Assembly (NCBI RefSeq): GCF_013283195.1
Contig: NZ_JABEKT010000001.1
Coordinates: 3,111,473 to 3,175,472, forward strand
Length of the DNA: 64,000 nt
DNA from: Ensifer adhaerens
Lineage (GTDB): Bacteria; Pseudomonadota; Alphaproteobacteria; Rhizobiales; Rhizobiaceae
Reading direction: 5' to 3'
Shown: in pieces, positions 63,327 through 63,570 of the stretch
Layout: every line of letters begins with the position of its first letter
How positions within the stretch are numbered: the first letter of the stretch is position 1
The notes under the pieces: model-generated
The model's database searches: none
Told to the model about the DNA's origin: nothing
Seen by the model: the letters and a program-made list of their open reading frames with translations, nothing else
Program-made: the position numbers and the translations under genes

Positions 63327-63570
63327 TCTCAGGGCGGGGTGAAAGTCCCCACCGGCGGTAGCGATCGCTACAGCGCCGCGCGTCCTAAAGACGCGCAAAG
63401 GTCGCTGTAGAACTTGAACGTGCTGCATGTTTTGCCCTTAAATCGGTGAGATTTAAGGAAACATGCAGTGATCGAAGCCCGCGAGCGCCTTGGAGCCGGC
63501 AGTGGTTCCAGGGGTCAGCAGATCCGGTCAGATTCCGGAGCCGACGGTTAGAGTCCGGATGGAAGAGAGC
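63327..63570 (+). ncRNA. FMN riboswitch (RFN element) interrupted by a palindromic repeat
   Basis: The 5' part CAGGGCGGGGTGAAAG and CCCCACCGGCGGTA, and the 3' parts AGCCCGCGAGCGCC, GGTCAGCAGATCCGGT and GAGTCCGGATGGAAGAGA match the RFN consensus. FMN binding would lower expression of the following ribH2 gene. The variable stem between CCGGCGGTA and AGCCCGCGAGC is filled by about 100 nt of RIME-like palindromes. I cannot tell whether control is by termination or by hiding the ribosome binding site; a CCCC/GGGG hairpin lies near 63586-63599. Confidence 0.9.
63367..63469. repeat. RIME-like double palindrome inside the riboswitch
   Basis: Two hairpins in tandem: CTACAGCG...CGCTGTAG with inner GCGCGTC/GACGCGC (63368-63410), and CTGCATGTTT...AAACATGCAG with inner CCTTAAATC/GATTTAAGG (63423-63468). 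Size and double-palindrome layout agree with the rhizobial intergenic mosaic element RIME1. Confidence 0.8.

Follow-up and report, generated by a model that had tools for sequence, protein, structure and literature searches.

Rhizobium-specific intergenic mosaic elements (RIMEs) are repeats of about 100 bp that contain two palindromes. In the S. meliloti literature, they are listed among the annotated intergenic repeats of unknown function (PMC2573895, PMC2245857). In the same species an FMN riboswitch precedes ribH2, and this is the source of the gene name used here (PMC2573895). Many riboswitches tolerate long "variable insertions" that form stem-loops, and the T-loops of P2, P3 and P5 of the FMN riboswitch are described as open to helix interruption at one position (PMC2258182). 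The words mobile, transpos-, repetitive and selfish are absent from the main text of that paper. A review of bacterial MITEs raises a different possibility, in which these elements could themselves form riboswitches or terminators (PMC10969869). No report of a RIME or a similar repeat inside a riboswitch aptamer was found among the matches listed in the open-licence PMC literature, and the available portions of PMC2873474, PMC5498481 and PMC1273637 contain no mention of one.

The DNA analysed here is a window of 64,000 nucleotides from Ensifer adhaerens that includes the beginning of ribH2 and its leader. The features of this leader are as follows:

63290..63317, + strand: promoter-like site TTGACC-16-TATAGT (consensus scan, 10/12; a consensus match only)
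63321..63574, + strand: FMN riboswitch aptamer (RFN element) of ribH2 (RF00050, 93.5 bits, E 5.9e-22 in this stretch)
63362..63366, + strand: left strand (CGATC) of the P3b outer stem, part of the native riboswitch arm (pairs with 63470-63474, pair probability 0.98-0.99)
63368..63468, + strand: RIME-type dispersed repeat in the P3b loop, 101 nt (R1 covariance model, 95.1 bits)
63368..63410, + strand: RIME hairpin 1 (MFE fold; family consensus fold)
63422..63469, + strand: RIME hairpin 2 (MFE fold; family consensus fold)
63470..63474, + strand: right strand (GATCG) of the P3b outer stem (MFE fold and pair probabilities)
63487..63516, + strand: P4 arm, the other variable arm, limits approximate (RF00050 match and arm comparison)
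63666..64000, + strand: ribH2, 6,7-dimethyl-8-ribityllumazine synthase, which runs off the window (NF009084, 184.5 bits, cut-off 160; PF00885)

The covariance search matched RF00050 over its full length (model positions 1-138), with a score of 93.5 bits compared to the gathering cut-off of 66.2, and the FMN-binding core of the riboswitch looks intact at the sequence level. The alignment to RF00050 places a long insertion in the aptamer between GGCGGTA and AGCCCGCGAGC. The spacing from GGCGGTA to CCCGCGA is 117 nt here, compared to 16-18 nt in 18 of the 32 FMN riboswitches of the genus. The promoter-like site lies directly 5′ of the aptamer match and is well kept in a ten-genome leader alignment, while the terminator scan found no intrinsic terminator in the ribH2 leader. 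The predicted fold of 63315-63580 had a z value of -5.3, and none of 200 shuffles was as low. The start codon of ribH2 is the ATG at 63666, and a sequence-only reading of the locus had given the gene this same name, with which both lumazine synthase models (NF009084 and PF00885) agree.

To BLAST, the region 63362-63477 (116 bases) had 28 matches in its own 7.07-Mb genome at E ≤0.001, itself included, and 44 at E 10. A covariance model, R1, was built from 16 aligned other copies with the riboswitch copy left out, and it recovered the riboswitch copy at 95.1 bits. At E ≤0.001, R1 had 87 matches in the own genome, a few of them overlapping on opposite strands, and the lower bounds for the 16 genus genomes, with 150 candidates scored in each, ranged from at least 43 to at least 150 matches per genome. 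The alignment and consensus fold of the 16 copies confirmed a repeat of approximately 100 bp with two palindromes, and RIMEs from unrelated sites share a similar fold. The ends of the repeat, CTACAGC and GCAGTAG, may constitute an imperfect terminal inverted repeat of 7 bp with one mismatch. The dispersed copies have common ends, with CTAC at the 5′ end in 53 of 60 high-scoring copies and TAG after the aligned 3′ end in 41 of 60. Target-site duplications of 4 or 5 bp were seen in 0 of 60 copies, and those of 2-3 bp in 1-3 of 60, which is the chance level. In terms of host range, the insert was matched in 296 of 72,556 plasmid records, all of them Rhizobiaceae by first name except one (Sinorhizobium 145, Rhizobium 125, Ensifer 19, Agrobacterium 4, Allorhizobium 1, Pararhizobium 1, Nitratireductor 1). 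The best match lay outside the listed genes in 10 of the 15 plasmid records listed, the other five being without annotation, in a gene table that is incomplete. The insert fits RIMEs as they are described in the S. meliloti literature, and the name RIME is used for it here on the basis of this descriptive fit.

In the MFE prediction, the rest of the leader folded identically whether or not the insert was present, and the expected number of RIME nucleotides paired outside the insert was 0.96 of 101. The nested prediction gave P1 and P6, as placed, a probability of 0 both with and without the insert, and P5 a probability of 0.38-0.43. Because this prediction does not contain the whole aptamer, it supports the independence of the insert and not an active fold. 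The sequence-only reading had recognised an FMN riboswitch whose variable arm contains a RIME-like repeat, with intact RFN blocks on both sides of the repeat and about 100 nt of two strong palindromes between them, and this description was supported: the RF00050 score of 93.5 bits and the 28 own-genome BLAST matches identify the riboswitch and the repeat, the score is well above the cut-off with the insert in place, the predicted fold outside the insert is unchanged, and the two hairpins occupy 63368-63410 and 63422-63469. The limits proposed for the insert, 63367-63469, were right to within one base.

Other RNA-related matches were also noted. A further RIME copy lies in the window at 21090-21193 on the minus strand (R1, 70.2 bits), with weaker R1 matches at 36208-36310 (minus strand) and 8074-8175 (plus strand). 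The Rhizobiales sRNA Atu_C9 (RF02503) matches 32104-32272 on the plus strand with 62 bits (cut-off 40), and its end is overlapped on the other strand by a weak R1 match of 18.4 bits. RNase P RNA class A is found at 15252-15651 on the minus strand with 305 bits. The miRNA family mir-4520 scores on RIME hairpin 2, probably through a mere likeness of hairpins.

Two FMN riboswitch matches were found in each of the 16 genus genomes (G000 to G015), with one of the 32 below the cut-off. The ribH2 arm contains a full RIME in three of these genomes, G000, G005 and G015, while in four sibling genomes, G003, G011, G013 and G014, the same site is empty, reads GCGATCGAAAGATCGAAG and forms the hairpin GCGATC-GAAA-GATCGAAG. 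The remaining nine genomes carry other 18-nt arms. The empty GAAA hairpin of the four siblings identifies the insert position as the tetraloop of the P3b arm, and the outer 5-bp P3b stem is also present in these empty relatives. That a mobile repeat settled here without breaking the core, as had been proposed from the sequence, is supported by the empty site in the four siblings, the covariance score and the unchanged predicted fold. The insert is not the normal arm of all relatives, since 13 of 16 genus genomes are without it at this locus, and it does resemble dispersed repeats. The leader alignment showed that the filled allele also differs from the empty ones in P4 and L6, so the function of the filled riboswitch could have shifted.

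A tree of the flanking DNA of both FMN loci placed G005, G015, G000 and G003 together with a support of 98. Given this grouping, the insertion into the ribH2 arm most likely predates the divergence of the four genomes. From the arm to the platform, the leader of G003 has 8, 10 and 14 differences in 129 positions from those of G013, G014 and G011, compared to 22, 22 and 21 of 129 from the filled G000, G005 and G015. Just upstream, G003 is about equally close to both groups, with 0-2 differences of 65 from the filled genomes and 2-3 from the empty ones, and the upstream motif GTCGGCC is common to G003 and the filled genomes. This pattern is consistent with the loss of the ribH2 insert from G003 (L095) by recombination with an empty allele.

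In the own genome, the second of the two FMN riboswitches lies before a gene for an EamA-family permease, for which a solved-structure search found no match. RibN transporters of alpha-proteobacteria have been described as being under FMN-riboswitch control (PMC4418817), and the second riboswitch is called ribN here by analogy. Its P3 loop contains a full RIME in three of 16 genomes, G011, G013 and G014 (R1, 83-100 bits), and RIME-like arms of 47-69 nt in six, G004, G006, G007, G009, G010 and G012. The RIME-likeness of these six arms was matched by 0 of 3000 dinucleotide shuffles in five cases and by 11 of 3000 in G004. Arms of 31 nt were found in G001 and G008, and arms of 16 nt in G000, G002, G003, G005 and G015. 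In G001 (L063, about 1578-1722), the ribN aptamer is truncated within its 3′ half by the loss of a part, and its score is 29.3 bits. The ribN insert occurs at one spot in both main clades, and it may represent either a single old insertion that has undergone erosion in one of the clades or two insertions.

The ribH2 copies end in ACATGCAG, and the ribN copies end in TTATGCAG or TTGTGCAG. These different ends suggest that the two loci were probably hit separately, each receiving its own insert. Gene conversion of the insert between ribH2 and ribN was considered and rejected by eye, as the outer stems are locus-specific and the insert ends differ. Full inserts never coincide in ribH2 and ribN among the 16 genomes. 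A filled ribH2 was accompanied by a short ribN arm in three of three genomes, compared to two of 13 otherwise (Fisher P = 0.018, which corresponds to approximately one change on the tree), and the full ribN insert was present only where ribH2 is empty (three of three). This reciprocal occupancy may be due to chance.

The leaders of other rhizobia were scanned with R1 at a threshold of E 0.1, which covered 53 of 80 named ribH2 loci (L107-L159), and a leader match at this threshold or better was obtained in three of the 53. S. kostiense has a full RIME (115 bits) between the aptamer and the gene, at the position of a CCCC/GGGG hairpin in its relatives; its own flanks pair over 2 bp only, and they point weakly to a location in a hairpin loop. 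Allorhizobium terrae carries a reverse-oriented RIME (67.7 bits) that is enclosed by a flanking stem of 8 bp on the downstream side of the aptamer. S. psoraleae carries RIME hairpin 1 in its P4 loop (R1, 24.4 bits; 0 of 3000 shuffles as high). In Ensifer sp. IC3342, its sister in the flanking-DNA tree, P4 probably includes the 3′ end of a RIME, which was missed by R1 and is more weakly supported than the RIME sequence in P4 of S. psoraleae (2 of 3000 shuffles). When 14 long or weak FMN loci outside the main set, together with the long cobalamin match of G010, were scanned with R1, a leader RIME was found only in G060 (L082), which belongs to another genus of the same family and whose partial RIME lies between the aptamer and the gene (18.4 bits; 0 of 3000 shuffles). 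By our reading of these cases, rather than by a formal reconstruction, about six separate arrivals of RIMEs in FMN leaders have taken place.

Several long arms were not attributable to RIMEs. The 31-nt ribN arms of G001 and G008 and the 33-35-nt P3 arms of S. meliloti, BR816, S. kostiense and IC3342 were considered as remnants, and this was unsupported, as 860-2670 of 3000 shuffles scored as high over this whole set. The FMN riboswitch of G024 (L081, G024:C23:78153-78372) is 220 nt long, and its P3 arm is a long structured insertion. It was also considered as an invading repeat and was rejected, since there was no other full match in its own genome and only two 16-nt matches at E 0.45. Not every long FMN-riboswitch arm is a repeat.

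To place the FMN riboswitch among other structured RNAs, 62 TPP and 118 cobalamin riboswitch matches of the same 16 genomes were inspected, and none contained a RIME as judged by match length, a test that would miss RIME copies that break a riboswitch match. The sole length outlier, a 406-nt cobalamin match of G010 (L277, G010:C34:465637-466042), is without a RIME. Each of the 16 genomes has one cobalamin match with a length of 262-270 nt, and this set was taken as orthologous and left out of the R1 scan. Lists compared by eye showed that none of the R1 matches of G000 (87) and G015 (91) overlaps a cobalamin or TPP match. A comparison of 60 RIME loci with Rfam at gathering thresholds showed an overlap with a known RNA only at the FMN riboswitch; the 20 loci taken from G008 and G012, and those of G000 and G015 beyond the 60, lay outside this set.

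We consider it probable that a RIME inserted into the GAAA loop of P3b and was tolerated there, and that such inserts decay into variable arms. The RIME-type repeat would have entered the loop of this dispensable hairpin before G005, G015, G000 and G003 split. It would have survived because the P3b loop is a site at which a self-contained stem-loop can be tolerated by the aptamer: both hairpins of the RIME are predicted to pair internally above the native stem and to leave the FMN-binding core unchanged. The filled riboswitch would then continue to sense FMN, and the insert would be neutral. Selection in the leader, and not targeting by the element, would likely be the filter that confines the copies seen to loops. 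The inserts would subsequently decay by internal deletion to shorter hairpins, which would make RIMEs a source of the variable arms of riboswitches.

If instead the element targets hairpin loops, riboswitch arms would be insertion hot spots. We regard this as very unlikely. It would agree with the range of places that were hit, namely the P3b arm in both paralogous riboswitches, the P4 arm and stretches further downstream. It was examined further in a sample of 60 high-scoring dispersed copies (40 of G014, 10 of G008 and 10 of G012), where the fold energy of 30-nt flanks leaned the same way (9 of 200 shuffles as low). The energy was, however, not clearly low at 20 nt (35 of 200) and not low at 12 nt (183 of 200), and the flanking stems were no longer than those of re-paired flanks (2.83 compared to 2.92-2.93; 148-155 of 200 shuffles as high). 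Stem length shows no preference, and hairpin-targeted insertion was rejected, although the lean in the energy of the 30-nt flanks leaves room for some targeting. The element does not clearly seek hairpins, and tolerance is therefore the likeliest explanation. That the long arm is an ordinary variable arm, whose likeness to the repeat arose by chance or from repeats copied out of the arm, is scarcely credible. The lengths of FMN riboswitches do vary among relatives, and the 220-nt riboswitch of G024 is an example without another full arm match, but the empty siblings give the exact site and contradict this explanation at the ribH2 locus. The dispersed copies moreover have the same ends as the insert, and a model built without the riboswitch copy recovers that copy with a high score.

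It is also conceivable, but unlikely, that selection maintains the RIME hairpins in service, where they would affect the stability or RNase III processing of the ribH2 leader RNA or the time it takes to fold during transcription. The suggestion in the sequence-only reading that the repeat may add thermodynamic or RNase III-dependent control of ribH2 is not supported here. Of the pairs changed between G000 and G005, three are still pairable and one is broken, and the insert is kept in three of four genomes of the clade, with the fourth being a likely case of recombination. Between G000 and G015, in contrast, no changed pairs are kept and 2-3 are broken. These two genomes share 35 orthologous RIMEs (34 dispersed copies and the riboswitch copy), obtained as both-flank matches among 50 G000 and 70 G015 loci, and in MFE stability the riboswitch copy ranked 3 and 2 of 35. 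Its conservation at paired sites was unexceptional. When the copies were folded individually, 4 of 146 paired sites differed in the riboswitch copy compared to 437 of 4514 in the controls (directions summed), and 5 of 34 controls were as low. With a shared consensus structure, the riboswitch pair had differences at 3 of 75 paired and 3 of 25 unpaired sites (P = 0.16), and 8 of 34 controls were as low. Strong selection on the embedded hairpins, of which the first sign had been the lack of any stem change between G000 and G015, thus failed against the 34-pair control. The conservation of the embedded copy does not significantly exceed that of the 34 orthologous dispersed copies, so nothing shows it to be regulatory; these comparisons provide a mild hint of constraint and no evidence for it. 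The similar folds of RIMEs at unrelated sites, and the frequency of short 16-18-nt arms (18 of 32 FMN riboswitches in the genus), also stand against hairpins in service. A broader and quite unlikely proposal is that rhizobial riboswitch arms are recurrently seeded by RIMEs and that some of these are retained as functional parts. The load would then be divided between the two FMN riboswitches of a genome, as the presence of a double-stranded RIME in a flavin leader would alter RNA processing or switching speed, and only one such module would be tolerated or needed.

For insertion into a tolerant loop, the explanation that we favor, the significance lies in the visibility of the source. No account of the origin of long riboswitch insertions was found in the open-licence PMC literature, and as far as searches of that literature show, mobile repeats as a source of riboswitch arms are new. 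Here, a single repeat family has entered tolerant loops on several occasions within one riboswitch class, and the forms that coexist in relatives are intact, half-length and short. The natural filled and empty alleles make the origin of a riboswitch arm testable, and the RIME alleles amount to a natural insertion-scanning experiment on the FMN aptamer.

Compared to the described FMN riboswitch (RF00050), the ribH2 leader is similar in its core blocks, its gene context and its score above the cut-off, and its insertion lies at a loop that is described as helix-interrupted (PMC2258182). It differs in that the P3 extension is a dispersed repeat of about 100 nt, where the usual arm has 16-18 nt. 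The RF02600 family (Brucella sRNA CI27) may be related to a RIME-like repeat: its model matches the antisense strand of the insert (63321-63478, minus strand) and, at E ≤0.1, that of 13 of 20 RIME loci of G014 (L217-L236), but all of these matches are below the gathering score (best 33.9 compared to 59.8). The bacterial MITE and REP sequences, as reviewed in PMC10969869, are likewise short, non-coding, dispersed and hairpin-forming, and the imperfect repeat CTACAGC/GCAGTAG at the ends of the insert family may be a further likeness, while this family differs from them in being without target duplication in 60 copies. The insert family also resembles the RIME, the element defined in Osteras 1995, in the many copies and the occurrence almost only in Rhizobiaceae. 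The length of about 100 bp and the two palindromes agree with RIMEs as well. Unlike the element as described, this copy lies within a structured RNA.
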